Shown here in pieces: positions 8,113-52,575 of a stretch of 64,000 bases of DNA. This DNA comes from Arabidopsis thaliana. Lineage: Eukaryota; Streptophyta; Magnoliopsida; Brassicales; Brassicaceae. The stretch is from NCBI RefSeq assembly GCF_000001735.4, contig NC_003074.8:7812101-7876100 (forward strand). Reading direction: 5' to 3'. The translations under genes were made by a program, and so were the position numbers. Numbering within the stretch: position 1 is the first letter of the stretch; every line of letters starts with the position of its first letter. The notes beneath the pieces are model-generated. The model saw only the letters and a list, made by a program, of their open reading frames with translations, searched no databases and was not told the DNA's origin.

Positions 8113-8377
8113 TTTATAAACGAAATATAGGATAAGGATTAGTTTACGTTTATAAATTCGAGATAAGGGATTTAATTTTATTCTTACACTAATAAAAGCG
8201 GTTTTGTGGTAGAGAAAAAAATCTAAAAAAAAGGTTGTGTAGTATAGAAAAAGAACATTAATTTTGTTTTTTTTTCTCTACCACACAACCCCTTTTATTA
8301 GTGTAAGAATAAGATTAAATTTTTTATTTTAGAATTTATAAACATAAACTATTCCTTATTTTATATTTCGTTTTTAA
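8113..8377. repeat. Long imperfect inverted repeat (foldback, MITE-like)
   Basis: The left arm at about 8113-8222 pairs with the right arm at about 8268-8377 over roughly 105 bases, leaving a loop of about 45 bases. Landmarks: CGAAATATA at 8121 pairs with TATATTTCG ending at 8370; TTATTCTTACACTAATAAAAG at 8179-8199 pairs with CTTTTATTAGTGTAAGAATAA at 8292-8312; GGTAGAGAAAAAA pairs with TTTTTTCTCTACC. By eye the arms are about 85-90% complementary. There is no coding capacity and I could not define target-site duplications. It could be a foldback transposon or a young small-RNA hairpin locus. Confidence 0.8.
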
Positions 8378-33979: not shown

Positions 33980-34463
33980 TTACTCTGATGTACAGAGGCT
34001 GGAGCATACGCCGCAGCAGAAGATACACTCCATACAAGTACTGCCAATAGTGTCAACAGACATATCAGTAAAAAAAAAAAGTAGAACGCCGGATATATAA
34101 AAAAATAACATCTTGGATAATTAGAGCCAAGTTATAAACATATATATATATATATATATACACGTACCTAAAACAACTCATTATGGCTTCGGGGTTGACG
34201 CCCTTGGAGTTTGTCTCCACTGCTGCTGCCGGAGGATCACCCACCACCGCATCTCTAGTCGGATAACCAATTGGTGGCGGACTTGTGTACGGCCCTGATG
34301 AAGTCTCTGAAGGTTTTTGCACTGTGCCAAAAAAAAAAAAAGTTATCTAGTTGGTGAGTAAAGAATTATTGTTCATCATGATTATACGTTAGACATTGAT
34401 CATGATTTTAGAAAACAATTGAAGATAATTACCGGAAAAGTAATTTTGCGCGGATTGATTCAT
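33980..34463 (-). CDS. PCC1: PCC1, CYSTM-family membrane protein (gene A)
   Basis: Three exons on the minus strand: 34463-34433, 34321-34168, 34040-33980, giving 81 aa. Exon 1 encodes MNQSAQNYFS, exon 2 a Pro-rich polar region with GYPTRDAVVGDPPAAAVE, exon 3 the Cys-rich tail STCMECIFCCGVCSSLCTSE (two splice bases shared). This is the Cys-rich transmembrane module (CYSTM), which lies at or in membranes and is associated with stress tolerance. Sequence and length match At3g22231, PATHOGEN AND CIRCADIAN CONTROLLED 1, induced by salicylate and pathogens under clock gating and linked to flowering and defence. It is the first of seven related genes on this strand. The second intron is only 127 bases, against about 590 in gene D. 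Confidence 0.93.
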
Positions 34464-34810
34464 TCTGATTTGAGGAGCTGAGGAGTGAGGATGTGAGATT
34501 TGTGAAGAGGAGAGAGTGTTGTGCTTCTAATTTATAAGGTAGACAAATATTAGGAAATTTTTTACATTATTCATTATATAAAAGAAAGAAGAGTCAATAT
34601 TGAACAATAAAAACATCTAATCACAGACAACTCACGGACAGACCTACCTTAGCGAAGTGGTAGGTCTAGGTTTTTTGGTTATATCCAACACATATATAAT
34701 TGCAGAGATAAAGCAAATGATATTGTTTGAAATGCACAAGGGCAGAGGAAAGCGATACCTATGGTTGAGATGAAAGTGAGAAATGGTTTGTTGCAGAAAT
34801 GGCTTTCGTC

Positions 34811-34840
34811 ACGTACATGACGTACACGTACATGACGTCG
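34811..34840 (-). promoter_or_regulatory. TGACG-motif tandem pair upstream of PCC1
   Basis: Two copies of a 15-base unit, ACGTACATGACGTAC then ACGTACATGACGTCG, about 350 bases upstream of the PCC1 ATG. TGACG repeated at 15-base spacing resembles the as-1 element bound by TGA bZIP factors in salicylate response. That PCC1 is SA-inducible is known for the gene; use of this site is inference. Unit 2 has three copies. Confidence 0.55.
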
Positions 34841-35342
34841 TAAAACATGAGGAATTTAACAAATTTGAATTATTTTGTTCCTGGAACTGTCTTTTAGAAC
34901 CTCTTTTTTTTTTTTTTGGGTATTGCTCTAAACTCTATGTAAATTAAATAACCTCTTTTGATGATTAATTAATTTAACATTTCATGAAAATGAAAAAGTG
35001 ATTAACCAACTGCCTTTGAACCATGATTAATAGTTTTGGCTTTGTTCCTTATGTTGGTGTGATCTGTTAAACTGCAAAGGAAAACAACTTTATAAACTTA
35101 GGTGTTGTTTATATTATTATATATTGTATTAAACTTAGGAATAAAAAATCATTACGTCATATTTTGTTGCTACGAATTATGACTAGCTATTTTTGTTTTT
35201 TACTTTGATTTATATAGAAACAAAATAGACGAAGCAAATGGGAATCATGGATCTCTTTCAACCAGTGAAGCAAATAACATACTGATGAATCCTCTATTAC
35301 GTATATGTTGTTTTTCTGGTTTGGGCAAAGTCTTGAGTCTCA
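34841..35342. other. PCC1 distal promoter and gene B 3' flank
   Basis: AT-rich, with a T-run at about 34904-34917. No ORF. The part from about 35170 resembles the 3' flank of PCC1. Confidence 0.5.
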
Positions 35343-35815
35343 TCATCCTGAAAATCCTGACGCGCAGCACATGACACATTCGCCGCAACCCTGGATACAA
35401 CTGCCAATAGTGTAGGCAGACAGATCATTAAAAGAGAGTTGCACGTCGGATGAACATCTTGCTAATAATTAGAGCCAAACTATCTATAAAGAAAGTAAGT
35501 TAAATTAGATATGTACTGTAATATTAACATTACGACTTCGCAGCAGCCCTTGGAATTTGTCTTCTCTGCTGCTGCCGGAGGATCACCCACCGCCTTATCT
35601 CTGGTTGGATAACCGATCGGCGGACTTGTGTCCGGTCCTGATGCATTCTGTGAACGTTTTTGCACTGTGGCCAAAAAGATTAGTTAATTATCTAGCGGTG
35701 TGTATAGAATAATTGTTCATGATTATATGTGGCCAAAAAGAATATACGTCGGACATTGATCATGATTTTAGATAATAAATGAAGAATTACCAGAAGTGTG
35801 CTCGAGCTGATTCAT
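35343..35815 (-). CDS. CYSTM-family protein (gene B, unit 1)
   Basis: Three exons on the minus strand: 35815-35791, 35664-35517, 35400-35343, giving 76 aa. Exon 1 MNQLEHTS; exon 2 VQKRSQNASGPDTSPP then GYPTRDKAVGDPPAAAEK; exon 3 the Cys-rich tail CIQGCGECVMCCASGFSG. Splice phases (1, then 2) equal those of PCC1, so they are true paralogues. The tail should insert in or associate with membranes through its Cys residues, by analogy with CYSTM proteins. It is probably the gene annotated near At3g22235 in the reference, but I am not sure which member that is. The coding sequence is identical in unit 2 as far as I compared. Confidence 0.85.
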
Positions 35816-36776
35816 TCTGATTTGAGGAGCTGAGGAATGATGGAAGGGAGAAATATGAAGTGGAGCGAGTGTTGTGGACTTAATTTAAGGAAGACGTACC
35901 ACCATTTTTTAATTTTTCTTACAAACATATACAGAACAGACTCATCTTAGCCAAGTCGTATACCACCACTTTTTTTTTAATGTAACTAAGTCACAAGTGA
36001 TTGTCGAGTAACAAAGAATTGCGGTGAAAAAGTAAATGCTATTTTGTGAAATGCAAAAGGGAAGAGGAAAGCGACGAAAACGGCCTTTTTCAACCTCTAT
36101 TATTTGTTAAAAGCCTTTTTTCAAAAAAACTCCGATGTCCTGTCTTTCTTAATCAGAATCAAAACAAAATTCAAATTGCAAATCTGACATTTATGAAAAT
36201 TAGCTGATTTCAACATATCTCTAGCTCGAACCATGAATTAATTATGGAGTTAAACACAAGTTTTGATGATGAAGAATCATAAATATTCCACAAGTGTTTT
36301 TTAAAAGCGTATTGAAACCTCTGGATCCAAAGTAGTAGGACTCATCAAAGTAGGAGTAAAAGAAAAAGAGATTTTAGCCAATGTATCATTTTTGGGTCCA
36401 ATGGAATTTTTATTCTCATATTAAAAAAAAATATTACAATTCCAAACAGAAAAATGTTAACTTTTGTTGCGAATATTTTCAGATATAGAAAAAACTTTGA
36501 TTTCATCGGTTAATTCAAAAATATTTTACTTATTCAGTAAAGTACTATTCATTTTCAAGCTCAATTAACTGAGACATAGTAATAAAATAAAATATATTTG
36601 AATAAAATAAAATTGCAAAAAGTCTTTTACTATGAATCTATGATCATATTTATAGTAGAATATGCAATAGGAAATACTTTGTTTTATCTAATTAATTCGA
36701 AACAGAACTATAGTTATGATATATTATTTCGATCTCACTAGCCTTTTTGATTTTTTTTTTATCACCATATGCTGTC
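35816..36776. other. Gene B promoter region, no other gene
   Basis: The first 150 bases contain the purine-rich leader shared by all cluster members (TTTGAGGAGCTGAGGA just before the ATG). The rest is AT-rich without ORFs. Confidence 0.5.
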
Positions 36777-36994
36777 ATGGTCTAATAAAGAATCATTCTG
36801 ATTAGTTGTTAATTTTGTGAAAAGTTCTTGTGCAAAGGATAATTTATTAAATGATATGTTCTTAATTTATATCGAGTAGACATTGTTTTTTCTTTTAATT
36901 GAAAGAATTCTAAATTCATAACTTGTAAGGAGGGACTTATAGTCACCAAAAACAGAGACTAAGGCAATTATTGGATTCAAAGTTGATGTTAAAA
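36777..36994 (+). pseudogene. rbcL (pseudo): Nuclear plastid DNA: rbcL leader and first codons, fragment R1
   Basis: ATGGTCTAATAAAGAATCAT onwards matches the chloroplast atpB-rbcL spacer as I recall it, running through the ribosome-binding GGAGGGACTTAT into the rbcL start region (CACC-AAAAACAGAGACTAAGGC) and the next codons up to about 36994. The start codon is changed (TATAG where ATG is expected). It is a short, old insertion from the plastid genome, not a functional gene. Confidence 0.8.
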
Positions 36995-37588
36995 CCCTTT
37001 TTGGTATTGTCAAGTTGTTAACATCTTGATAAATAATATATCAAAACGAAACCTTGGAGACGAGGAGTTTAATTTTCTTTTTAGAATTTTAAAAAACAAA
37101 TATACGTGATCGTGAAAACGTTTACAATATATGTATAACGGCTATATTGCATATTATATTTAATAGGATTATTATGTAATTTTTAAGAGAGAGGTCAAAA
37201 TTGCAAAAAGACGATTTTGAAGTTTTTTTCACAAAACCCAAACTTCAAAACAAAATGGGATTTAGAATTTAATTTTGTTGGTATCACCCTGGCAAATGTG
37301 GAGTTATTTTTTTCTTATCCAATGATGGAATAGTCATTTGGAACTCAACTAGCTGAAAAATAATTTAAAACTGAAATGTATATGTATAAAAAACAATTTA
37401 CAAAAACTTTTGCTTTAGTTCTCATCGAGAATAGGCAATAGGTTTCTTAAACATATTTAGTGTCAAGAGTGATTTTATTAAGATTTTAATATTAAATATT
37501 TGGATATATAAAAAGTCAAAGATAACGTAACGTGAAAAGGAAGTATTAGATTGCGCTATACATATGAAAAATATATACTAAATGATGT

Positions 37589-38218
37589 ATTTGGCGAATC
37601 AAGCATCATGGTCTAATACAGAATCATTCCGATTGAATCATTCTGATTGAATCATTTTGAATAGTTGTTAATTTTGTGAAAATTCATGTGAAAAGGTTAA
37701 CTAAATGATATATCTTAATTTATGTCTAGTAGACCTTGTTGTTTCGTTTTGTTGCAAGAATTTTAAATATATGGCTTGTTGGGAGGGACTTATCTCACCA
37801 AAACAAAGACTAAAGCAAATGTTGGATACAAAGCTAGTGTCGATGAAGAAACGATATATGCGGTAGCTGCTGAATCTTCTACTGGAACATGGGAAACTAA
37901 AGCGATGGGGCATACCAGCCTGGATCGTTTCAAAGATGATGCTACCACATCAAACCCGTTTTGGGAGAAAAAACCTCAATTTATTGCGAATATAATAACT
38001 TACCCCTTAGATCTTTTTGATGAATGTTTGGTTACTACCATGTATACCTCGACTGTGGGTAATGTATTTGGGTTCAAAACCATGTTTGTTTTACGTCTAG
38101 AGGATATGTGAATCCCTTCTGCTTATACTAAAATGTTCCAAGGACCATCTCATGGCATCCAAGTTGAAAGAGACAAATTGAACAAGTACTATCTAGAGGA
38201 TATGTGAATCCCTTCTGC
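37589..38218 (+). pseudogene. rbcL (pseudo): Nuclear plastid DNA: rbcL leader and N-terminal half, fragment R2
   Basis: The rbcL spacer begins at TTTGGCGAATC (37591), and GGGAGGGACTTAT leads to a start region with ATC for ATG. In frame it reads VAAESSTGTWET, TSLDRFKDDA, TYPLDLFDE, TSTVGNVFGFK and LRLEDM, then stops where rbcL has CTGCGA (here ATGTGA); [20 protein letters not shown] follow. About 30 codons after ASV are deleted and there is a 1-base deletion near the start. The tail 38193-38218 repeats 38097-38122 exactly (26 bases). Many changes are C to T at former CG sites, as expected for methylated nuclear plastid DNA. Confidence 0.92.
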
Positions 38219-38403
38219 AGTTCATAAACGGCGGTTCAATCGTGTTTTACGATTTGAGATTAAGGTTCTCATAGGACCGGTTCGATTTTGTTTAAATTGG
38301 TTTTGTTTAGTTAGATACTAAGTAAAAATTGTATGAATCTAAATTCGGAAATATCCCAATAGACCTTATTTATAAAATTTGAATACCTTTTCAAAAAAAA
38401 AAA

Positions 38404-39737
38404 GGGCTTATTAGAATAATAGACACTTTTTAAAAAATAATTTGAGAAGTAGGTAGTTTTTTTAGAAATTGGTGAAATAGACATTTTTTTTACTTTTTAT
38501 GAAATAGAGGTTATGTGTAATAAGCTAAAAGACAAAAATATGTCAAATACCACTTTACCCTTTACTTCATATGAGAAAATATGAGTCTAAATTTTTATAT
38601 TATTTAACTATTTAGAACTATTTTTATTATATTATAGTTATTTTTTTTTCATATTCATCTTTTTGAATTTTATTAAAAAAAAATATTTTTTTTTAAATAA
38701 TTTCTTCTTCCAAAGACAAGATGATTTATATGTTTTTAATTATCATTCTCGTACACCAGCAATAAAACATAGTTTTATACACTAACACTTATACACCAAA
38801 TCATTTTATACATATCTTCTAAAATATTTCTATTTATCTCATATTATAAAATAAAATAATAATTGTTCATAAATTAATAAAAATATGATGGTGTACACCA
38901 TCATGCATACTATTAAATTAACCATAATGGTGTATACCATTAAATGAAAGTAATGTTTGTACATTTTTACTTATGTACACTAACATTTGTATACTTTTAT
39001 GTACACTAATCTCATATTATTATTATTTAAACTTTGTTTTGTATATTATCACTTGACAAAAATGGTTCTGTCTTTTGTATATGAGGTGTACACAATAGGT
39101 GAAGGTGTACGATATTATAGACGGTGTAGAAGTTGATTTATGGTTTGATTTATTATCTCATTATTGCATGTATACTATTAATATCATGTACACCATATGT
39201 TACATTTTCGTACACCATCTTATTATGTAGTTGCACATCGTTGTATATTATCGTTTGTACATCACTTTGTACACTGTCTATACCGTATACCACTTCTTAG
39301 ATCAATATTATACATTATCGTTGTACACTACTATTTGTACACCACATTTTTACCATATCGCATACACCGTCGGGTTAAGATCAAATAAAAGAAAAGTATT
39401 ATATATTTGTAAAATATAGCAAAATTAGACTTTTTAGATTCAGAAAAAAAATTAAAAGATTAATATATATTTTATGATAATTATTTAATGAAGAATTTAT
39501 AACAAAACAAACTAAATATATATAAATAAAGAGAAAAAGAAAAAAAAATTATTTTTGTCTTTATTTGACTATATGACAAAACAGCAGAAGGTTATAAAGG
39601 TCATTCACTAAAATCTCTATTAGATAGAAAGTTGTATTAGAGAGGAAAGAGAAAAGTGTCTATTCTCCCTATTTCTAAAAAAACTACCTATTTTGCAAAT
39701 TATTTGTGAAAAAAGTGTCTAGTTTCCAACTTATCTC
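38404..39737. mobile_element. Mutator-like non-autonomous element with long terminal inverted repeats
   Basis: The left end GGGCTTATTAGAATAATAGACAC (from 38404) and the reverse of the right end GAGATAAGTTGGAAACTAGACAC (to 39737) are related. The inverted repeats run about 90 bases, with the exact core TAGGTAGTTTTTTTAGAAAT (left about 38450) on both arms. Both ends abut A-runs (11 and 10 As), compatible with a 9-bp target duplication. Inside there is no transposase frame. Instead 38751-39342 holds ten GTACAC motifs (38751, 38893, 38975, 39001, 39088, 39188, 39210, 39269, 39323, 39337), most as TGTACACC/T. Family is uncertain; long TIRs suggest Mutator. Confidence 0.72.
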
Positions 39738-39932
39738 AAAAAAAAAATACACCAAACAAATGCGGATAATGGATCCCTTTTAAATAATGAAGCAAATAAA
39801 CTTAAAAATGGAACGTGAGAATCCATACAAGCGACTAATATATATATATATATATCTTGAGTCAAGATAACATATTGATGGATCTTCTATTACGTGTTGT
39901 TTTTCTGGTTTGGGCAAAGGACTTCAGTCTCA

Positions 39933-40410
39933 TCATCCTCCTCCGCAGAAGCAGAGCGCGATATGGCCACAACACAAAAGACCACTGCCAATAGTGTAGA
40001 CAGACAACAAATCATTAAAAAGAAAGTTGAACGCCGGTTGCGAATAATTAGAGCCAAACTATAAACATATAATAATAATAAAAAAGTAAACTAAATGAAA
40101 TATATATGTACTGTAATACGACGTCGCAGCAATTGGGCTTTTTCTCCACTGCTTTTGCCGGAGGATCACCCACCCCCTTATCTCTGGTCGGATAACCCAT
40201 CGTCGGCGGAGGACTTACGTACGTCCCTGATTGTTTTTCCACTGTGCCCAAAAAGATTATTTAATTGTCTAATTGCTTTGTGTAGAATAATAACTGTTCA
40301 TGGTTATGCATGCATGGCCAAAAAGATTAGACGTCGGACATTAATTGATCATGATTTTAGAAAATAGTTGAAGAATTACCTGGAATGTATTTGTTGTCGT
40401 GTTCATTCAT
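39933..40410 (-). CDS. CYSTM-family protein (gene C, unit 1)
   Basis: Three exons on the minus strand: 40410-40380, 40241-40112, 39984-39933, giving 70 aa. Exon 1 MNEHDNKYIP; exon 2 VEKQSGTYVSPPPTMGYPTR then DKGVGDPPAKAVEKKPNCC; exon 3 GLLCCGHIALCFCGGG. It is the most divergent member and has two Cys at the end of exon 2 and four in the tail. The exon structure and splice phases are those of PCC1. The start is the upstream of two close ATGs, the one equivalent to the other members. A TA repeat in its 3' flank (about 39839-39856) is two bases longer in unit 2. Function beyond CYSTM membership is unknown. Confidence 0.83.
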
Positions 40411-40650
40411 TCTGGTTTGAGGAGCTGAGGAATGAGGAAGGGAGAATTATGAAGAGGAGAGAGTGTTGTGGTGTTTTAATTTAACATAGACGAATATATA
40501 GGAAGCTTCTAAATAAAAGAATGAAAAGTCAATATTGAATAGACATACCTATTTTGCAACACTTGTGTTATATATAAATGCTAGTGTTCAAGAAAGTCAA
40601 TTTCATATAATTTTTATACAGTGTTTTTTTTTTGAAAGACACGTATATAA

Positions 40651-41368
40651 ATAATCATTATGATTATTTGTTAATTATGCGAAAGGTTCTTACGAAACAA
40701 GTTAATATGTTAAATGATCTATTCCTAATTTATGCCGAGTAGACCTTGTTGCTTTTTAATTTATTGCAAGAATTCTAAATTCATGACTTGTAGGGATAGA
40801 CTTAGCCACCACAAACAGAGACTAAAGCAATTTTTGGATTTCAAATTGGTGTTAAAGAGTATAAATTGACTTATTAAAATCAAGGATACTAATTTCTTGG
40901 AAGCATTCCAACTCTGGATCTTCTATTGGTACATGGAAAACTGTGTGGACCGATAGTCTTACCAGTTTTGATCGTTACAAAGGATGATGCTACCACATCG
41001 CGTTTGTTGCAAGAGAAAGAAACTTAATTATTGCGTATGCAACTTACCCATTATACCTTTTTGAAGAATGTTCAGTTACTAACATATTTACCTCCATTGT
41101 GCATGTATTTTGGGTACAAAGCCATGGATGTTGTACGTCTAGAGGAATTGCAAATCCATCGTTCTTATACTAAACACTTTTGAAACATCACCTCATGGAT
41201 CCAAATTAAAAGAGATAGATTGAACAAGTATGGACGTCCCTTAGTAGGTTATCCGAGAAAAACTATGGTAAAGCAAATTATGAATGTATATATGTGATTT
41301 TACCAAAGATGGTGAGAATGTGAACTTCCAACCATTTATGTGTTAGAGAGACCGTTTCTTATTTTAGG
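40651..41368 (+). pseudogene. rbcL (pseudo): Nuclear plastid DNA: rbcL leader and N-terminal region, fragment R3
   Basis: The leader (CCGAGTAGACCTTGTTGCTT, then GACTTGTAGGGATAGACTTA) leads to CACCACAAACAGAGACTAAAGC, the rbcL start, with the ATG lost. It then follows rbcL DNA: GAGTATAAATTGACTTATTA, ACTGTGTGGACCGATAG, TTTTGATCGTTACAAAGGA and so on, with several deletions and frameshifts, to GAGAGACCGTTTCTTATTTT (about 41365). It reaches further into rbcL than R2 and lacks R2's large deletion, so it may descend from the same insertion by ancestral gene duplication, or be a separate event. Confidence 0.88.
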
Positions 41369-41700
41369 CTAGGACTGTCCCATTGGTATTATAAATAGAA
41401 GTAGAGAAATGTCAGCAAAGGACATGTGATAACTGAGAGTGAGAGTCAGAGAATATTCTCGATTCCAGCTCAAAGTCTTAAGCTCGACATTCCAACTTGT
41501 TTAGTTAAACTTTCAGTAATTTGTAAGTTCGGCGGTTAACAGTTTCATGTAAACGGCCGTAACGTTCAGTTGTTGAAATAAAATCTTCTATTTTGTTGCT
41601 ATTGTCTTCTCATCTTGTTAGGTTGGGCTTCAATACCAACAGATTCGTTGTATTTTGTATTTTCTTTCGGCACCAACAGATTCGTTGTATTTTATATTTT
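41369..41700 (+). mobile_element. LTR-like fragment (R/U5 region)
   Basis: TATAAATAG (about 41390) lies upstream of a transcript-like stretch with AATAAA-type sequence (GAAATAAAATC, 41575) and the end CTTCAATACCAACA, all resembling the 3' half of a Copia-type LTR. ACCAACAGATTCGTTGTATTTT occurs twice (about 41636 and 41672). There is no internal polyprotein, so this would be a truncated solo LTR. Class is inferred from layout only. Confidence 0.35.
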
Positions 41701-42595
41701 CTTGTCTACTTCTTTTGGAAATTTGATGTCAGAAAAATACCATGTCGACGTTGTTTTCGATTTATTTGATTATAATAATATAACTTCGTAGTTAGAGAAA
41801 AACCACACACAAAATTTTTGTAGGATTTAAAACACTACACAATTTTATTTGTGTGTTTTTAACCTCCCAAATAGGGATTTTGACATTTAACTTGAATCAT
41901 AAGTATGTTCTAAATTCCGCCCCAAAAAAAGAGAGTATGTTCTAATTAATCATGATGTATATATAAATACGTATATATATCAAACGGGAAATGTAACTTT
42001 ATTACTTGTTACTTTTAACCTCCCAAATAAGGAGCTTAACTGGCACTTTCTTTGAAGTTTAACTGAATGTTTCTCTAACTTTCACAAACATAAAAACGTG
42101 AAGCAATTTAATTCCATCTCGTTTGAGATATATACATGCATGATTTAGAACATACTTAAGTTTTCTGCAGTATAACACGTAGTATACTAGTATATGTTGT
42201 TGTGATGTTTTCTAGAGAAATCGATTTTGTTATGTTCGCTTTTCTATTACTGTATCTTCTTTTTGATTGGTCATAAAAAACAAAACAAAAACATCATCCC
42301 ACCTAATTAATTCCCTTTGGGTAACCCGTAATCCATTCACAACTCTTCAATGATAATCAATGCGTGAGGAACTGAAACACATCCTTTCGTTACTGACTGA
42401 TGGTTCAATCATCGATGGATCTATTCGACAACCCAATTCAACGGAATATATATATATATATATATAATCACTTACATAAAACATAGTAACAACCATCCAC
42501 AGAGTATATTCCAAACAGAGAGTAGGTAACATAACTAGCATCAAATACTCTTTTATTACATCAATAATTTGCATGAAATCGTTAATTCCGAAGTC

Positions 42596-43514
42596 TCAGA
42601 AGCATGCATCCAGGACACAACAGCAGCATATGGCAGCACAACTGCCAATAGACAAAACCAAATTTATTAAGTGTTACGTACCATTCTTGTCTAAGGACTA
42701 GGGAAGATATTGGTTTATATTTGAAATAGTAACATTTTCTGAAAACTTTAAATAAAGAAAAAGTATTTTAGCAACGTACGTAATATCCCATGGTTTAATT
42801 TCTTTTTAGTTGTTCAGTTGGTAAAACAAACTTTTAGCTGACAACTCTGAAGTTGAATTTTTATATTATCTTTTGTCATTGAAGGGGAAATAAAATGTAA
42901 GTCAAGGGTGAATTTAAAACAAACAACAAAATTGCAAGAAATTAAACACTAGTTATCAACTAAAATGTTGGGAAAAAAAACAAATCTTGACTAGAAAATG
43001 TTGACCCAAATTTTACCAAAACATTTGCAGTTCAAAACCAATAGTTTGATTCGAATTAGATATACTCCATAATAATTCAGGAAAACAGAGAAACACACAA
43101 GAAATTGAAACCCTATACTGATAGATCATTAAAAATAAAATAAGAGCGTCGTATGAATATCTTGCAAAACGAATAATTAGAACCATCATGATCTATAATC
43201 ACATGAAGAGATTAAAATGAAAGAAAAACATACCATCCTTCGGGGTTGACGCCCTTGGAGTTTGTCTCCACTGCTGCTGCCGGAGGATCACCCACCACCG
43301 CATCTCTAGTCGGATAACCAATTGGTGGCGGACTTGTGTACGGCCCTGATGAAGTCTCTGAAGGTTTTTGCACTGTGCCAAAAAAAAAAAAAATTATCTA
43401 GTTGGTGAGTAAAGAATTATTGTTCATCATGATTATACGTTAGACATTGATCATGATTTTAGAAAACAATTGAAGATAATTACCGGAAAAGTAATTTTGC
43501 GCGGATTGATTCAT
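42596..43514 (-). CDS. Chimeric CYSTM gene: PCC1 exons 1-2 joined to gene D exon 3
   Basis: Three exons on the minus strand: 43514-43484, 43372-43234, 42641-42596, giving 71 aa in frame. Exon 1 and nearly all of exon 2 are PCC1 (MNQSAQNYFS, then GYPTRDAVVGDPPAAAVE, ending NSKGVNPEG). The last bases of exon 2, the 592-base intron, exon 3 (CCAAICCCCVLDACF) and the 3' flank are gene D. The switch is at 43238-43240, where only AAG (minus strand) is shared by both parents, one codon out of register. The donor GTATG and the phases are intact, so a functional mRNA is expected: PCC1 promoter and N-terminus with the D membrane tail. It sits at the junction of the tandem duplication and is its direct product. 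Confidence 0.85.
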
Positions 43515-43860
43515 TCTGATTTGAGGAGCTGAGGAGTGAGGATGTGAGATTTGTGAAGAGGAGAGAGTGTTGTGCTTCTAATTTATAAGGTAGACGAATA
43601 TTAGGAAATTTTTTACATTATTCATTATATAAAAGAAAGAAGAGTCAATATTGAACAATAAAAACATCTATCACAGACAACTCACGGACAGACCTACCTT
43701 AGCGAAGTGGTAGGTCTAGGTTTTTTGGTTATATCCAACACATATATAATTGCAGAGATAAAGCAAATGATATTGTTTGAAATGCACAAGGGCAGAGGAA
43801 AGCGATACCTATGGTTGAGATGAAAGTGAGAAATGGTTTGTTGCAGAAATGGCTTTCGTC

Positions 43861-43905
43861 ACGTACATGACGTACACGTACATGACGTACACGTACATGA
43901 CGTCG
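43861..43905 (-). promoter_or_regulatory. TGACG-motif triple repeat upstream of the chimeric gene
   Basis: Three tandem 15-base units (ACGTACATGACGTAC twice, then ACGTACATGACGTCG), about 350 bases before the chimera's ATG. PCC1 itself has two. If this is an as-1-type element, the chimera may respond more strongly or differently to salicylate; that is inference. Confidence 0.5.
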
Positions 43906-43951
43906 TAAAACATGAGGAATTTAACAAATTTGAATTATTTTGTTCCTGGAA

Positions 43952-44930
43952 TACTCTATGAATACCTCATAATATATGAGTACCTCATAATATATTATTA
44001 ATATTTTTATGTTTAATTTAAGTAGACAAACTTATACTAAAATTGTGCTTCCATTGGTGAGATACTCTTATGAGTATCTCATTACCATTAACATATTATT
44101 ATATGTTTTCTTATATTAAATTTAAAATCTCTACAATATTTTCAAACATATCAATTATTATTTTTACAAATTATATTATTAAATAGTTTTATTATTTTTA
44201 AAACCATAATTAAACATAATTAAACATTACTTTACATATAAAATCATAATAAAAATATATAAATTAAACATAAAATTCCATATAAAACCATGATAACATA
44301 AATTAAATAGAAAAAAATATATAAATTACACAGAAATTACATATAAAACCATGATAACATAAATCAAAGCTAACTATATTATCTATTATGGTTTTACTCT
44401 TCATTTGATGATGCACCAAACTTTGTCATATATGCTCAACTAGGTCATCTTTTAGTTGTTGGTGCATATCTCTATCACGAAGTCGAATTCGATTGCCGAG
44501 AATGTTGTAAAATAAAAATAGAAAATTTTAAATGTTTGTTTTCTAATTAAAAAAAACTATTGTATTTATAAGTTATTATTATGTTTAATGCTTAACTAAC
44601 ACCAATTAAATAATATTTGTATATAATTTAAAAATATACATAATAGAGCTTGTTATAGATAATTTAATTTTATGAATTTTAAAAGTAAAAAATAAAAAAA
44701 AATAAAAAACATATAAAGTATTTAATTGATGTTATAAAGTATAGATGATTTTATTTATAACAAAGAAAAGAAATTAATAGCAAGGTGACATGTGGAAGAG
44801 AGAGAAAGTTTCTCTAAGTTTCTCATTTCAGAAACGATTCTGAGAAAAACTGATTAAAAAATTATTATTTTAATATTTTTGATTTATTTTTGTTTGGAGT
44901 TTTTCAGTGAGAAACCACCAATGGAAATGG
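43952..44930 (-). mobile_element. PIF/Harbinger-like insertion remnant, only in unit 2
   Basis: It is absent at the matching place in unit 1 (about 34886-34895). On the minus strand the element begins GACCATTTCCATTGGTG next to TAA, the kind of terminus common in plant PIF/Harbinger MITEs. A related TTCCATTGGTGAGATACTC lies near the other end (about 44050). At 44429-44489 the minus strand encodes RDRDMHQQLKDDLVEH, resembling the C-terminus of the Harbinger nuclease, followed by a stop and a frameshifted KFGASSNE. The far end (43952-44045) holds extra copies of a CTCATAATATATTA-like sequence. It is decayed and non-autonomous. Confidence 0.55.
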
Positions 44931-45380
44931 TCTTAGAACCTCTTTTTTTTTTTTTTGGTATTGCTCTAAACTCTATATAAATTAAATAACCTCTTTTGAT
45001 GATTAATTAATTTAACATTTCATGAAAATGAAAAAGTGATTAACCAACTGCCTTTGAACCATGATTAATAGTTTTGGCTTTGTTCCTTATGTTGGTGTGA
45101 TCTGTTAAACTGCAAAGGAAAACAACTTTATAAACTTAGGTGTTGTTTATATTATTATATATTGTATTAAACTTAGGAATAAAAAATCATTACGTCATAT
45201 TTTGTTGCTACGAATTATGACTAGCTATTTTTGTTTTTTACTTTGATTTATATAGAAACAAAATAGACGAAGCAAATGGGAATCATGGATCTCTTTCAAC
45301 CAGTGAAGCAAATAACATACTGATGAATCCTCTATTACGTATATGTTGTTTTTCTGGTTTGGGCAAAGTCTTGAGTCTCA

Positions 45381-45853
45381 TCATCCTGAAAATCCTGACG
45401 CGCAGCACATGACACATTCGCCGCAACCCTGGATACAACTGCCAATAGTGTAGGCAGACAGATCATTAAAAGAGAGTTGCACGTCGGATGAACATCTTGC
45501 TAATAATTAGAGCCAAACTATCTATAAAGAAAGTAAGTTAAATTAGATATGTACTGTAATATTAACATTACGACTTCGCAGCAGCCCTTGGAATTTGTCT
45601 TCTCTGCTGCTGCCGGAGGATCACCCACCGCCTTATCTCTGGTTGGATAACCGATCGGCGGACTTGTGTCCGGTCCTGATGCATTCTGTGAACGTTTTTG
45701 CACTGTGGCCAAAAAGATTAGTTAATTATCTAGCGGTGTGTATAGAATAATTGTTCATGATTATATGTGGCCAAAAAGAATATACGTCGGACATTGATCA
45801 TGATTTTAGATAATAAATGAAGAATTACCAGAAGTGTGCTCGAGCTGATTCAT
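45381..45853 (-). CDS. CYSTM-family protein (gene B', unit 2)
   Basis: Exons on the minus strand 45853-45829, 45702-45555, 45438-45381; 76 aa. It is the offset copy (10038 bases) of gene B, and all three exons read the same sequence. Its promoter and leader (45854-46130) are also copied. The sequence gives no reason to think either copy is inactive, so the protein dose may be doubled. Confidence 0.85.
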
Positions 45854-46810
45854 TCTGATTTGAGGAGCTGAGGAATGATGGAAGGGAGAAATATGAAGTG
45901 GAGCGAGTGTTGTGGACTTAATTTAAGGAAGACGTACCACCATTTTTTAATTTTTCTTACAAACATATACAGAACAGACTCATCTTAGCCAAGTCGTATA
46001 CCACCACTTTTTTTTTAATGTAACTAAGTCACAAGTGATTGTCGAGTAACAAAGAATTGCGGTGAAAAAGTAAATGCTATTTTGTGAAATGCAAAAGGGA
46101 AGAGGAAAGCGACGAAAACGGCCTTTTTCAACCTCTATTATTTGTTAAAAGCCTTTTCAACAAAAACTCTGATGTCCTGCCTTTCTTAATCAGAATCAAA
46201 ACAAAATTCAAATTGCAAATCTAACCTTTATGAAAATTAGCTGATTTCAACATATCTCTAGCTCGAACCATGAGTTAATTATGGAGTTAAACACAAGTTT
46301 TGATGATGAAGAATCATAAATATTCCATAAGTTTTTTTAAAAGCGTATTGAAACCTCTGGATCCAAAGTAGTAGGACTCATCAAAGTAGGAGTAAAAGAA
46401 AAAGAGATTTTAGCCAATGTATCATTTTTGGGTCCAATGGAATTTTTATTCTCATATTAAAAAAAATATTACAATTCCAAACAGAAAAATGTTAACTTTT
46501 GGTGCGAATTTTTTCAGATATAAAAAAAACTTTGATTTCATCGGTTAATTCAAAAATATTTTACTTATTCAATAAAGTACTATTCATTTTCAAGCTCAAT
46601 TAACTGAGACATAGTAATAAAATAAAATATATTTGAATAAAATAAAATTGCAAAAAGTCTTTTACTATGAATCTATGATCATATTTATAGTAGAATATGC
46701 AATAGGAAATACTTTGTTTTATCTAATTAATTCGAAACAGAACTATAGTTATGATATATTATTTCGATCTCACTAGCCTTTTTGATTTTTTTTTATCACC
46801 ATATGCTGTC

Positions 46811-47029
46811 ATGGTCTAATAAAGAATCATTCTGATTAGTTGTTAATTTTGTGAAAAGTTCTTGTGCAAAGGATAATATATTAAATGATATGTTCTTAAT
46901 TTATATCGAGTAGACATTGTTTTTTCTTTTAATTGAAAGTATTCTAAATTCATAACTTGTAAGGAGGGACTTATAGTCACCAAAAACAGAGACTAAGGCA
47001 ATTATTGGATTCAAAGTTGATGTTAAAAC
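46811..47029 (+). pseudogene. rbcL (pseudo): rbcL-derived plastid fragment R1'
   Basis: Copy of R1 in unit 2, with the same altered start (TATAGTCACC) and the same end in the early rbcL codons. A few private base changes, such as AATATATTAAATG for AATTTATTAAATG, show that the copies are real and not identical. Confidence 0.8.
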
Positions 47030-47626
47030 CCTTTTTGGTATTGTCAAGTTTTTAAAATCTTGATAAATAATATATCAAAACGAAACCTTGGAGACGAGGA
47101 GTTTAATTTTCTTTTTAGAATTTTAAAAAACAAATATACGTGATCGTGAAAACGTTTACAATATATGTATAACGGCTATATTGCATATTATATTTAATAG
47201 GATTATTATGTAATTTTTAAGAGAGAGGTCAAAATTGCAAAAAATGACGATTTTGAAGTTTTTTTTCACAAAACCCAAACTTCAAAACAAAATGGGATTT
47301 AGAATTTAATTTTGTTGGTATCACCCTGGCAAATGTGGAGTTATTTTTTTCTTATTCAATGATGGAATAGTCATTTCGAACTCAACTAGCTGAAAAATAA
47401 TTTTAAACTGAAATGTATATGTATAAAAAACAATTTACAAAAACTTTTGCTTTAGTTCTCATCGAGAATAGGCAATAGGTTTCTTAAACATATTTAGTGT
47501 CAAGAGTGATTTTATTAAGATTTTAATATGAAATATTTGGATATATAAAAAGTCAAAGATAACGTAACGTGAATAGGAAGTATTAGATTGCGCTATACAT
47601 ATGAAAAATATATACTAAATGATGTA

Positions 47627-48256
47627 TTTGGCGAATCAAGCATCATGGTCTAATACAGAATCATTCCGATTGAATCATTCTGATTGAATCATTTTGAATA
47701 GTTGTTAATTTTGTGAAAATTCATGTGAAAAGGTTAACTAAATGATATATTCTTAATTTATGTCGAGTAGACCTTGTTGTTTCGTTTTACTGCAAGAATT
47801 TTAAATATATGGCTTGTTGGGAGGGACTTATCTCACCAAAACAAAGACTAAAGCAAATGTTGGATACAAAGCTAGTGTCGATGAAGAAACGATATATGCG
47901 GTAGCTGCTGAATCTTCTACTGGAACATGGGAAACTAAAGCGATGGGGCATACCAGCCTGGATCGTTTCAAAGATGATGCTACCACATCAAACCCGTTTT
48001 GGGAGAAAAAACCTCAATTTATTGCAAATATAATAACTTACCCCTTAGATCTTTTTGATGAATGTTTGGTTACTACCATGTATACCTCGACTGTGGGTAA
48101 TGTATTTGGGTTCAAAACCATGTTTGTTTTACGTCTAGAGGATATGTGAATCCCTTCTGCTTATACTAAAATGTTCCAAGGACCATCTCATGGTATCCAA
48201 GTTGAAAGAGACAAATTGAACAAGTACTATCTAGAGGATATGTGAATCCCTTCTGC
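47627..48256 (+). pseudogene. rbcL (pseudo): rbcL-derived plastid fragment R2'
   Basis: Copy of R2 at an offset of 10038. It has the same deletion after the first codons, the same ATC at the start, the same TGA at the CTGCGA site and the same 26-base internal repeat, so all this decay predates the tandem duplication. The open frame of 111 codons (47814-48149) is the undisturbed rbcL frame and lacks an ATG at its 5' end. Confidence 0.9.
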
Positions 48257-48416
48257 AGTTCATAAACGGCGGTTCAATCGTGTTTTACGATTTGAGATTA
48301 AGGTTCTCATAGGACCGGTTCGATTTTGTTTAAATTGGTTTTGTTTAGTTAGATGCTAAGTAAAAAATTGTATGAATCTAAATTCGGAAATATCCCAATA
48401 GACCTTATTTATAAAA

Positions 48417-48828
48417 TACTACTATTTGTACACCACATTTTTACCATATCGCATACACCGTCGGGTTAAGATCAAATAAAAGAAAAGTATTATATATTTG
48501 TAAAATATAGCAAAATTAGACTTTTTAGATTCAGAAAAAAAATTAAAAGATTAATATATATTTTATGATAATTATTTAATGAAGAATTTATAACAAAACA
48601 AACTAAATATATATAAATAAAGAGAAAAAGAAAAAAAAATTATTTTTGTCTTTATTTGACTATATGACAAAACAGCAGAAGGTTATAAAGGTCATTCACT
48701 AAAATCTCTATTAGATAGAAAGTTGTATTAGAGAGGAAAGAGAAAAGTGTCTATTCTCCCTATTTCTAAAAAAACTACCTATTTTGCAAATTATTTGTGA
48801 AAAAAGTGTCTAGTTTCCAACTTATCTC
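48417..48828. mobile_element. Truncated Mutator-like element (right part only)
   Basis: It matches 39323-39737 of the complete element. The left terminal repeat and most of the GTACAC array are missing; the junction reads TTATAAAATACTACTATTTG, fusing unit-1 positions about 38377 and 39323. Because the full element in unit 1 has both inverted repeats, this is a deletion of 945 bases in unit 2 and not an insertion in unit 1. Confidence 0.8.
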
Positions 48829-49025
48829 AAAAAAAAAATACACCAAACAAATGCGGATAATGGATCCCTTTTAAATAATGAAGCAAATAAACTTAAAAAT
48901 GGAACGTGAGAATCCATACAAGCGACTAATATATATATATATATATATCTTGAGTCAAGATAACATATTGATGGATCTTCTATTACGTGTTGTTTTTCTG
49001 GTTTGGGCAAAGGACTTCAGTCTCA

Positions 49026-49503
49026 TCATCCTCCTCCGCAGAAGCAGAGCGCGATATGGCCACAACACAAAAGACCACTGCCAATAGTGTAGACAGACAA
49101 CAAATCATTAAAAAGAAAGTTGAACGCCGGTTGCGAATAATTAGAGCCAAACTATAAACATATAATAATAATAAAAAAGTAAACTAAATGAAATATATAT
49201 GTACTGTAATACGACGTCGCAGCAATTGGGCTTTTTCTCCACTGCTTTTGCCGGAGGATCACCCACCCCCTTATCTCTGGTCGGATAACCCATCGTCGGC
49301 GGAGGACTTACGTACGTCCCTGATTGTTTTTCCACTGTGCCCAAAAAGATTATTTAATTGTCTAATTGCTTTGTGTAGAATAATAACTGTTCATGGTTAT
49401 GCATGCATGGCCAAAAAGATTAGACGTCGGACATTAATTGATCATGATTTTAGAAAATAGTTGAAGAATTACCTGGAATGTATTTGTTGTCGTGTTCATT
49501 CAT
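49026..49503 (-). CDS. CYSTM-family protein (gene C', unit 2)
   Basis: Exons on the minus strand 49503-49473, 49334-49205, 49077-49026; 70 aa. It is the copy of gene C at an offset of 9093, with the coding sequence identical by eye. The 5' leader and promoter are the same. Its 3' flank now borders the truncated Mutator-like element. Confidence 0.83.
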
Positions 49504-49742
49504 TCTGGTTTGAGGAGCTGAGGAATGAGGAAGGGAGAATTATGAAGAGGAGAGAGTGTTGTGGTGTTTTAATTTAACATAGACGAATATATAGGAAGCT
49601 TCTAAATAAAAGAATGAAAAGTCAATATTGAATAGACATACCTATTTTGCAACACTTGTGTTATATATAAATGCTAGTGTTCAAGAAAGTCAATTTCATA
49701 TAATTTTTATACAGTGTTTTTTTTTGAAAGACACGTATATAA

Positions 49743-50460
49743 ATAATCATTATGATTATTTGTTAATTATGCGAAAGGTTCTTACGAAACAAGTTAATAT
49801 GTTAAATGATCTATTCCTAATTTATGCCGAGTAGACCTTGTTGCTTTTTAATTTATTGCAAGAATTCTAAATTCATGACTTGTAGGGATAGACTTAGCCA
49901 CCACAAACAGAGACTAAAGCAATTTTTGGATTTCAAATTGGTGTTAAAGAGTATAAATTGACTTATTAAAATCAAGGATACTAATTTCTTGGAAGCATTC
50001 CAACTCTGGATCTTCTATTGGTACATGGAAAACTGTGTGGACCGATAGTCTTACCAGTTTTGATCGTTACAAAGGATGATGCTACCACATCGCGTTTGTT
50101 GCAAGAGAAAGAAACTTAATTATTGCGTATGCAACTTACCCATTATACCTTTTTGAAGAATGTTCAGTTACTAACATATTTACCTCCATTGTGCATGTAT
50201 TTTGGGTACAAAGCCATGGATGTTGTACGTCTAGAGGAATTGCAAATCCATCGTTCTTATACTAAACACTTTTGAAACATCACCTCATGGATCCAAATTA
50301 AAAGAGATAGATTGAACAAGTATGGACGTCCCTTAGTAGGTTATCCGAGAAAAACTATGGTAAAGCAAATTATGAATGTATATATGTGATTTTACCAAAG
50401 ATGGTGAGAATGTGAACTTCCAACCATTTATGTGTTAGAGAGACCGTTTCTTATTTTAGG
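49743..50460 (+). pseudogene. rbcL (pseudo): rbcL-derived plastid fragment R3'
   Basis: Copy of R3, offset about 9092, with the same lost start codon, deletions and end point (GAGACCGTTTCTTATTTT). The shared damage shows that it came with the tandem duplication. Confidence 0.86.
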
Positions 50461-50793
50461 CTAGGACTGTCCCATTGGTATTATAAATAGAAGTAGAGAA
50501 ATGTCAGCAAAGGACATGTGATAACTGAGAGTGAGAGTCAGAGAATATTCTCGATTCCAGCTCAAAGTCTTAAGCTCGACATTCCAACTTGTTTAGTTAA
50601 ACTTTCAGTAATTTGTAAGTTCGGCGGTTAACAGTTTCATGTAAACGGCCGTAACGTTCAGTTGTTGAAATAAAATCTTCTATTTTGTTGCTATTGTCTT
50701 CTCATCTTGTTAGGTTGGGCTTCAATACCAACAGATTCGTTGTATTTTGTATTTTCTTTCGGCACCAACAGATTCGTTGTATTTTATATTTTC
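50461..50793 (+). mobile_element. LTR-like fragment, unit 2 copy
   Basis: Same TATAAATAG, AATAAA-type signal and doubled ACCAACAGATTCGTTG sequence as at 41369-41700. Assignment as a solo LTR is tentative. Confidence 0.33.
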
Positions 50794-51687
50794 TTGTCTA
50801 CTTCTTTTGGAAATTTGATGTCAGAAAAATACCATGTCGACGTTGTTTTCGATTTATTTGATTATAATAATATAACTTCGTAGTTAGAGAAAAACCACAC
50901 ACAAAATTTTTGTAGGATTTAAAACACTACACAATTTTATTTGTGTGTTTTTAACCTCCCAAATAGGGATTTTGACATTTAACTTGAATCATAAGTATGT
51001 TCTAAATTCCGCCCCAAAAAAAGAGAGTATGTTCTAATTAATCATGATGTATATATAAATACGTATATATATCAAACGGGAAATGTAACTTTATTACTTG
51101 TTACTTTTAACCTCCCAAATAAGGAGCTTAACTGGCACTTTCTTTGAAGTTTAACTGAATGTTTCTCTAACTTTCACAAACATAAAAACGTGAAGCAATT
51201 TAATTCCATCTCGTTTGAGATATATACATGCATGATTTAGAACATACTTAAGTTTTCTGCAGTATAACACGTAGTATACTAGTATATGTTGTTGTGATGT
51301 TTTCTAGAGAAATCGATTTTGTTATGTTCGCTTTTCTATTACTGTATCTTCTTTTTGATTGGTCATAAAAAACAAAACAAAAACATCATCCCACCTAATT
51401 AATTCCCTTTGGGTAACCCGTAATCCATTCACAACTCTTCAATGATAATCAATGCGTGAGGAACTGAAACACATCCTTTCGTTACTGACTGATGGTTCAA
51501 TCATCGATGGATCTATTCGACAACCCAATTCAACGGAATATATATATATATATATATAATCACTTACATAAAACATAGTAACAACCATCCACAGAGTATA
51601 TTCCAAACAGAGAGTAGGTAACATAACTAGCATCAAATACTCTTTTATTACATCAATAATTTGCATGAAATCGTTAATTCCGAAGTC

Positions 51688-52575
51688 TCAGAAGCATGCA
51701 TCCAGGACACAACAGCAGCATATGGCAGCACAACTGCCAATAGACAAAACCAAATTTATTAAGTGTTACGTACCATTCTTGTCTAAGGACTAGGGAAGAT
51801 ATTGGTTTATATTTGAAATAGTAACATTTTCTGAAAACTTTAAATAAAGAAAAAGTATTTTAGCAACGTACGTAATATCCCATGGTTTAATTTCTTTTTA
51901 GTTGTTCAGTTGGTAAAACAAACTTTTAGCTGACAACTCTGAAGTTGAATTTTTATATTATCTTTTGTCATTGAAGGGGAAATAAAATGTAAGTCAAGGG
52001 TGAATTTAAAACAAACAACAAAATTGCAAGAAATTAAACACTAGTTATCAACTAAAATGTTGGGAAAAAAAACAAATCTTGACTAGAAAATGTTGACCCA
52101 AATTTTGCCAAAACATTTGCAGTTCAAAACCAATAGTTTGACTACTCGAATTAGAGATACTCCATAATAATTCAGGAAAACAGAGAAACACACAAGAAAT
52201 TGAAACCCTATACTGATAGATCATTAAAAATAAAATAAGAGCGTCGTATGAATGTCTTGCAAAACGGATAATTAGAACCATCATGATCTATAATCACATG
52301 AAGAGAGTGAATGAAAGAAAAACATACCATCCTTTCCAAAAACCATCGCCCTTGGACTTTGTCTCCACTGCGGCGGCTGGAGGATCACCAACCATCGCAT
52401 CTCTGGTCGGATAACCAATCGGTGGTGGACTTGTGTACGGCCCCGAAGAAGTCTGTGAAGGTTTTTCCACTGAGGCAAGAAAAGATTATTAACTTATCTA
52501 ATTGGATATCGATCTTGATTTAAACAGATAATTGAAGAATTTACCGGACAAGTGATTCTGCTCGGATGGATTCAT
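51688..52575 (-). CDS. CYSTM-family protein (gene D, probably At3g22240)
   Basis: Three exons on the minus strand: 52575-52545, 52469-52328, 51733-51688, giving 72 aa. Exon 1 MNPSEQNHLS; exon 2 VEKPSQTSSGPYTSPP then GYPTRDAMVGDPPAAAVETK and KGDGFWKG; exon 3 CCAAICCCCVLDACF, the strongest CYSTM tail in the cluster. The second intron is 594 bases and contains AT-rich sequence shared with the chimera's intron. This is the parent of the chimera's 3' half and closes the cluster. The upstream flank (52576-52700) has the common purine-rich leader and differs from that of PCC1. Confidence 0.88.

Follow-up and report, generated by a model that had tools for sequence, protein, structure and literature searches.

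We found that the cluster of small genes around PCC1 on Arabidopsis thaliana chromosome 3 consists of two head-to-tail copies of one unit and that the gene at their joint, At3g22235 (PCM5/CYSTM8), is a transcribed chimera. Very probably, the present cluster derives from four genes, A-B-C-D, through a single tandem duplication in which the second exons of A and D underwent unequal, homology-guided exchange, creating the fused At3g22235. In the window, that is, the whole 64,000-nucleotide stretch of DNA analyzed, seven genes are predicted on the minus strand in the order A (PCC1), B, C, D/A, B', C', and D, and all seven are intact three-exon open reading frames with GT-AG introns:

33980 to 34463, minus strand: gene A, PCC1/PCM4 (At3g22231), 81 aa; exons 34433-34463, 34168-34321, and 33980-34040
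35343 to 35815, minus strand: gene B, 76 aa, intact open reading frame outside the named PCM genes
39933 to 40410, minus strand: gene C, 70 aa, intact open reading frame outside the named PCM genes
42596 to 43514, minus strand: gene D/A, At3g22235 (PCM5/CYSTM8), 71 aa; exons 43484-43514, 43234-43372, and 42596-42641
45381 to 45853, minus strand: gene B', coding sequence same as that of B
49026 to 49503, minus strand: gene C', coding sequence same as that of C
51688 to 52575, minus strand: gene D, 72 aa; exons 52545-52575, 52328-52469, and 51688-51733

The predicted length of gene A agrees with the published PCC1 length of 81 aa. The proteins of A, D/A, and D scored 34.9, 41.5, and 58.5 bits, respectively, above the curated Pfam cutoff of 25.2 bits for CYSTM (PF12734), while B (10.6 bits) and C (11.5 bits) fell below it; by DNA similarity and gene structure, B and C are paralogues of the others, but we do not file them under CYSTM. 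The available part of the PCM/CYSTM family paper names three genes at this locus, which fit A, D/A, and D (PMC8049917), and gene order and common microarray probes suggest that D is At3g22240 (PCM6/CYSTM9). The available passages do not name genes B, C, B', or C', nor 6 of the 14 relatives in Fig. 1b (PMC8049917), and the neighboring locus names At3g22232, -33, -34, -36, -37, and -38 had no literature match. Scans of the window for tRNAs (ARAGORN, bacterial setting) and Rfam families each gave 0 matches. As a check for plant contamination, a 22-mer common to A and D/A was sought in a prokaryote genome collection, from which records of the window's own genome may have been omitted, with 0 matches.

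A self-BLAST comparison of the window, with pieces shorter than 80 bp discarded, returned three colinear blocks: 34187-34886 against 43238-43951 (97.5% identity), 34894-38378 against 44933-48417 (98.9%), and 39327-43615 against 48418-52672 (97.2%, counting in the paralogous end of A and D). These define the following features:

34187 to 43237: copy 1 of the tandem unit, 5' part of A to 3' part of D, 9,051 bp
43238 to 52333: copy 2 of the tandem unit, 9,096 bp, head to tail with copy 1
43234 to 43240, minus strand: novel joint, A-derived ...GTCAACCCCG, then AAG common to both, then D-derived GATGG...

The copies therefore form a colinear repeat with one joint, as a sequence-only reading had proposed for the PCC1/CYSTM cluster. 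That reading had also placed the breakpoints inside paralogous exons, and 34187 does lie in exon 2 of A (34168-34321) and 52333 in exon 2 of D (52328-52469). Both edges are projections of the only real joint, 43237/43238, which falls within exon 2 of D/A (43234-43372) at an equivalent position in exon 2 of A and of D, with a 3-nt offset. Head-to-tail copies with a single new joint between paralogous sequences are what unequal exchange produces in a tandem duplication. The junction 27-mer, with up to three mismatches allowed, occurred once in the window and matched in 0 of 100 shuffles. Identity at the joint is limited to 3 nt (AAG) and the longest exact match between A and D to 17 nt, which is short for a classical crossover.

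Exon 2 of D/A has a PCC1-type 5' part and a D-type 3' part, with 3 nt common to both, and, except for a few later markers, A-type parental markers give way to D-type ones at a single point along the gene, within exon 2. The published quantitative PCR reverse primer for At3g22235, which was used on cDNA, crosses both this fusion point and the predicted splice. Among the five distinct predicted cDNAs, only the fused, spliced D/A matched this primer exactly, with 0 mismatches compared to 3 for D and 9 to 11 for A, B, and C. Microarray probes are common to PCM5 and PCM6 in the available part of the family paper (PMC8049917), as expected from the identical 3' ends of D/A and D. The passages available do not mention a PCM5 fusion, and the main text contains no instance of the string "duplicat" (PMC8049917). 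The chimeric origin of PCM5, the four unlisted open reading frames, and the faster divergence of B and C exons relative to introns and untranslated regions (UTRs) in some comparisons are new points.

The two copies also differ by mobile elements, and both carry plastid-derived DNA:

43952 to 44932: insert found in copy 2 only, 981 bp, member of a short repeat family with TTA at its right edge and a truncated left end
38379 to 39326: block missing from copy 2, 948 bp, comprising the left ~925 bp of a DNA-transposon-like element and 23 bp of flank
36450 to 38188, plus strand: plastid-derived insertions (atpB-rbcL spacer and 5' part of rbcL), copy 2 counterpart 46485-48226
40647 to 41365, plus strand: third plastid-derived segment, 75% identical to the plastid, copy 2 counterpart 49739-50457

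The 981-bp insert lies about 440 bp upstream of the D/A ATG. PIF/Harbinger-type elements have terminal inverted repeats and make a 3-bp TTA/TAA target duplication on both sides; this insert has TTA on the right side only, and its left end is truncated compared to its relatives. The DNA-transposon-like element of copy 1, whose start was judged from relatives, has inverted ends (38420-38488 and 39652-39721). Since its right end is retained in copy 2 at 48743-48812, the loss of about 945 bases noted earlier is a true loss in that copy. The insertions at 36450 to 38188 form two segments, 36450-36993 and 37244-38188, with overlapping plastid ranges, giving three plastid-derived segments per tandem unit. 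We had considered these spacer repeats as genes, but they matched plastid sequence C7:54165-55618 (rbcL start, 54958) instead. These repeated rbcL-region insertions record older duplications.

Outside the insert edge, where 10 mismatches (columns 34880-34940) were dropped before the mosaic test (47 to 37), the copies differ by 37 substitutions plus small indels, and these are unevenly spread:

38323 to 43014: homogenized tract, 0 mismatches to copy 2 in 3,743 aligned sites
34941 to 36115: second identical tract, holding gene B, 0 of 1,175
36116 to 38322: diverged tract, 28 of 2,203 (1.28% corrected)

The longest identical run was 3,748, compared to a maximum of 2,719 among 20,000 shuffles. At a substitution rate of 7e-9 per site per year, the tract ages of 0.21, 0 (<0.18), 0.92, 0 (<0.06), and 2.3 My disagree, and we rejected a single date for the duplication. 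Divergence is also unequal on the two sides of the joint (7 of 222 sites on the D side, 2 of 692 on the A side), so conversion may have reshaped the present joint. The mosaic indicates that the copies were probably homogenized after they formed. An earlier description of the duplication as recent is only partly right and needs qualifying, since the divergence between the copies is strongly mosaic. At least two rounds of array expansion and contraction, rather than gene conversion, could instead lie behind both the 1.3% divergence at 36 to 38 kb and the identical tracts. Older rounds are indeed visible in the three plastid-derived segments per unit, but no third unit could be traced in the self-comparison, and two units with patchy exchange suffice; we consider this alternative possible but unlikely.

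The course of events that we favor would begin with an ancestral array of four genes, A-B-C-D, in keeping with the earlier proposal that four genes became seven and with the seven intact open reading frames in the window. The tandem duplication would have come from unequal, homology-guided exchange involving the second exons of A and D, presumably by crossing over of sister or homologous chromosomes. Its sole new joint would be D/A, in which PCC1 supplied the proximal promoter, exon 1, and the larger part of exon 2, and D supplied the end of exon 2, intron 2, and exon 3, which codes for the cysteine-rich membrane tail. The joint is single, the reading frame across it is preserved, and the published transcript primer matches it. 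Afterwards, a transposon-like sequence would have inserted into copy 2, and a different element there would have been partly deleted; subsequent exchange or conversion between copies may have wiped substitutions from two stretches of about 3.7 kb and 1.2 kb. Replication-based, microhomology-mediated template switching, rather than reciprocal unequal crossover, would account for a joint with 3 common nucleotides and a 3-nt shift in register between A and D. However, the breakpoints match in exons that align over ~370 bp at 73%, as a homology-blind event would rarely achieve, and we regard template switching as unlikely. Equivalent breakpoints in paralogous exons make homology-guided exchange between A and D the likelier of the two routes, unequal exchange and template switching, put forward in the sequence-only reading, and the mechanism is probably the ordinary one of unequal exchange within a tandem array.

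In some comparisons, the exons of B and C show roughly double the divergence rate of the introns and UTRs in the same genes, with frames kept open. Six gene pairs were compared; D/A, being part A and part D, was excluded. Codon estimates of dN/dS were 0.60 (0.28-1.23) for A-B, 0.71 (0.31-1.53) for A-C, 0.58 (0.31-1.14) for B-C, and 0.65 (0.32-1.38) for C-D, and they were clearly below 1 for B-D (0.25, 0.10-0.51) and A-D (0.41, 0.20-0.76). In a first codon alignment, whose reliability was lower near exon 3, the values for A-B, A-C, and B-C were 0.65, 0.67, and 0.67 when every codon was counted and 0.64, 1.01, and 1.16, respectively, for the first 58 columns. Between B and C, the linked plastid-derived spacers (Jukes-Cantor distance, 0.324) have diverged like the exons (0.333), so constrained or converted introns would account for the contrast equally well, and we do not regard positive selection on these two genes as established. 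An active peptide-diversifying array, in which At3g22235 is an exon 2 head/tail swap that puts the D membrane tail under the promoter and head of PCC1 and the B and C exons are under diversifying selection, is unlikely.

An assembly artefact, with the second unit a duplicated contig, might be suspected from the 3.7 kb free of substitutions, but it is extremely improbable given the 37 substitutions, 981-bp insert, 948-bp loss, and small indels that separate the copies and the primer, built on the joint, that served for quantitative PCR on cDNA. Equally hard to credit is an accession-specific copy-number variant missing from the Col-0 reference, as had been suggested earlier and as the three genes named at the locus in the available literature might imply: the assembly itself is TAIR10 Col-0, which contains the arrangement, and the joint gene is At3g22235.

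Across head and promoter, 2 of 692 sites distinguish A from D/A, and the promoters include one further feature:

43857 to 43902, minus strand: promoter repeat with TGACG motifs, present in A and D/A, with an extra 15-bp unit in D/A

This repeat holds four TGACG motifs in D/A and three in A, and the counts within 500 bp are the same, with 0 for each of the remaining five genes. Gene D, if it is PCM6, is salicylate responsive yet has no TGACG motif within 500 bp. The functional outcome of the fusion is likely a gene with a D tail, a PCC1 head, and PCC1-type salicylate-responsive control. Against such promoter capture, the available part of the family paper reports that PCM6 is also salicylate responsive and affected in npr1 on microarrays and that PCM4, PCM5, and PCM6 share one coexpression neighborhood (PMC8049917).

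The duplication joint explains the origin of a studied defense gene, At3g22235. If PCM6 is D, it shares its tail with PCM5 but not its head, which means that the overexpression and localization lines already made amount to a domain-swap experiment. In the available passages, PCM5-YFP is reported at the plasma membrane, as is PCM4, and PCM6-YFP is not, and the published results of two groups on PCM5 localization disagree (PMC8049917). Probes, short reads, and guide RNAs placed on the common parts of PCM5/PCM6, B/B', and C/C' cannot distinguish the copies, and a knockout of a single unit may spare the other. The four open reading frames B, C, B', and C' extend beyond the family members named in the available text.

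Within the PCM/CYSTM family, A, D/A, and, presumably, D correspond to PCM4 to PCM6, in tandem on chromosome 3 (PMC8049917, in the part available). In the accessible portion of a report on A. thaliana, the AT3G18530/AT3G18535/MSH2 copy-number region undergoes recurrent exchange via 99%-identical flanks (PMC5101643); there, as in the PCC1 cluster, a small gene block is tandemly duplicated via similar sequences, whereas the PCC1 exchange was between 73%-similar exons and fused two genes. The RPP8 family, as described in the text available (PMC6771003), is likewise a defense locus with duplication and exchange between copies, but its members are receptor genes from an altogether different family, while the PCC1 cluster encodes tiny membrane peptides.

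Self-comparison of the window revealed one head-to-tail repeat, whose two copies are colinear over three blocks of 97-99% identity, so the tandem duplication proposed by the sequence-only reading is real. In the full alignment, the copies differ by 47 substitutions within the unit, 10 of them at the ragged margin of an insert found only in copy 2. The minus-strand genes, ordered in plus-strand coordinates, are A (PCC1/PCM4, At3g22231), B, C, a fused gene (D/A), second copies of B and C (B' and C'), and D. All seven are predicted three-exon ORFs with GT-AG introns and without internal stops (predicted proteins of 81, 76, 70, 71, 76, 70, and 72 aa, respectively), and the coding sequences of B and B', like those of C and C', are identical.

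Repeat units, single-copy blocks, and ORFs B and C (window positions)
34187-43237, copy 1 of the tandem repeat, 9,051 bp
43238-52333, copy 2 of the tandem repeat, 9,096 bp
35343-35815, minus strand, gene B
39933-40410, minus strand, gene C
43952-44932, insert present only in copy 2, 981 bp
38379-39326, block present only in copy 1, 948 bp

The proposal that this is an accession-specific variant falls as far as Col-0 is concerned, since the window is the Col-0 reference itself (Chr3:7,812,101-7,876,100). The earlier description of the duplication was good, its mechanism is ordinary, and the arrangement is present in the reference; the present analysis adds the identity of the fused gene as At3g22235, its published transcript evidence, mosaic homogenization, plastid-derived spacers, and four unlisted ORFs. 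Self-comparison also identified a 266-base near-palindrome at 8113-8378, 81% identical to its reverse complement, which is probably a fold-back mobile element.

The single new joint created by the duplication lies within exon 2 of the fourth gene, D/A, and the breakpoints previously placed in exon 2 of A (34187) and of D (52333) are the positions in the two intact genes that correspond to this joint. Around the joint, exon 2 reads ...GGCGTCAACCCCGAAGCCAT in A, ...GGCGATGGTTTTTGGAAAGGATGG in D, and ...GGCGTCAACCCCGAAGGATGG in D/A, with the switch from A to D falling inside an AAG common to both parents. Exon 2 of D/A has 3 nt fewer than exon 2 of D, so the reading frame is kept. Parental markers in D/A go from A to D within exon 2 (alignment columns 483 to 487), the exceptions being the first part of the alignment, where the aligned D/A sequence had been trimmed, and a few post-switch markers that match A or neither of the two genes. 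Sequence of the A type continues unbroken through the promoter, up to 43951.

The predicted product of A matches the published 81-aa size of PCC1 (PMC3903633). To identify D/A, we used the quantitative PCR primers printed for CYSTM8/At3g22235 (PMC12281597). The reverse primer matches the D/A cDNA with 0 mismatches, crossing both the A-D fusion and the predicted exon 2/exon 3 splice, while its best matches elsewhere have 3 mismatches in the D cDNA, 9 to 11 in the cDNAs of A, B, and C, and 6 in the D/A and D sequences before splicing. Because a published primer is exact across fusion and splice, D/A is At3g22235 (PCM5/CYSTM8) and is transcribed; CYSTM8 was 8.8-fold higher in an arabinose-fed overexpression line than in the wild type (PMC12281597). 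By gene order and its shared 3' end, D appears to be At3g22240 (PCM6/CYSTM9), which is listed in a plasma-membrane mass-spectrometry table (PMC10264680). Literature was searched by locus name and family terms; the available portions of PMC8049917 do not describe PCM5 as a fusion gene. The same portions did not name B, C, B', or C', and six candidate locus names lying between the known ones had no match in literature searched by locus name. The homology search in that paper returned 14 genes, eight of them named there as PCMs, and B or C may be among the other six.

Divergence between the copies is far from even: in five consecutive segments, the fraction of sites that differ is 2/692, 0/1,175, 28/2,203, 0/3,743, and 7/222 (chi-square P = 1.4e-18, with segment edges chosen after the data were seen). 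In an edge-free test, the longest identical run was 3,748, versus at most 2,719 in 20,000 shuffles. Among the small indels of the long identical tract are one within an AT repeat and one within a T run. The two identical tracts adjoin the two large heterologies, as if exchange between the copies had halted at the insert and the deletion. The block that copy 2 lacks forms the left part of a repeated element whose ends are inverted; since the right end of this element persists in copy 2, the 945-base loss reported earlier was indeed a loss from that copy. The insert is a member of a repeat family, and its relatives in the genome number at least four near-full ones and one that is split. Its right edge carries TTA, its left end is truncated, and it lies ~440 bp upstream of the D/A start codon.

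The spacer repeats are plastid DNA. Each unit carries three segments with pieces 75-85% identical to the rbcL 5' region and the adjoining plastid region, which we take to be the atpB-rbcL spacer; the plastid genome contig was recognized by its rbcL.

Plastid-derived segments (window positions)
36450-36993, 37244-38188, and 40647-41365, copy 1
46485-47027, 47281-48226, and 49739-50457, copy 2

Such segments lie upstream of B and of C alike, so these two units probably form an old tandem pair, and three insertions per unit point to older tandem rounds that took in plastid DNA. Today, 37650-38188 and 40653-41230 are 73.7% identical. Within the plastid-derived block, 36990-37242 and its unit 2 copy consist of a short dispersed repeat that matches dozens of places in the genome.

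Salicylate-responsive elements have TGACG as their core. We found three TGACG motifs within 500 bp of the ATG in A, four in D/A, and none in B, C, B', C', or D; relative to PCC1, the D/A promoter has one extra 15-bp TGACG-containing repeat unit (43857-43902 versus 34807-34837). The fused gene therefore links the tail of D with the proximal promoter of PCC1. Counting against simple promoter capture, PCM6 is itself salicylate responsive, PCM4, PCM5, and PCM6 have a common coexpression neighborhood, and both PCC1 and PCM6 are affected in npr1 microarrays (PMC8049917); PCM5 and PCM6 have common probes on the microarrays of Fig. 2a in that paper. At3g22231 and At3g22235 occupy one column of a 5-day downy-mildew induction table (PMC4498041), and PCM4 and PCM5 are named jointly as far-red repressed (PMC8049917). 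PCM5-YFP was found at the plasma membrane and PCM6-YFP was not, although the authors concede that PCM6-YFP may be degraded; another group placed PCM5 in the cytoplasm (cited in PMC8049917).

B and C score 10.6 and 11.5 bits against the Pfam CYSTM model, under its 25.2-bit cut-off, and so are not filed as members. Neutral single-lineage simulations seldom left an intact frame (2.5-6.4% of runs, by gene and indel rate), which argues for constraint on the reading frame. We also compared divergence in exons with that in introns taken together with the near UTRs (60 bp upstream and 90 bp downstream) for six pairs, with P values uncorrected. Exons were more diverged for B-C (0.333 versus 0.172; P = 0.0013) and A-C (0.493 versus 0.233; P = 3e-5), weakly so for A-B (0.367 versus 0.268; P = 0.08), and less diverged for A-D (0.320 versus 0.492; P = 0.018), with no difference for B-D or C-D (P = 0.64 and 0.78). 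Diversifying selection on B and C is only a lead, since every one of the six pairs has a dN/dS point estimate below 1, clearly so in the case of B-D and A-D, and divergence in the plastid spacer equals that in the exons. In the chromosome 2 sister cluster, PCM1 to PCM3, exons are far more conserved in all three pairs, the opposite of B-C and A-C, in which similarity is greater in introns and near UTRs.
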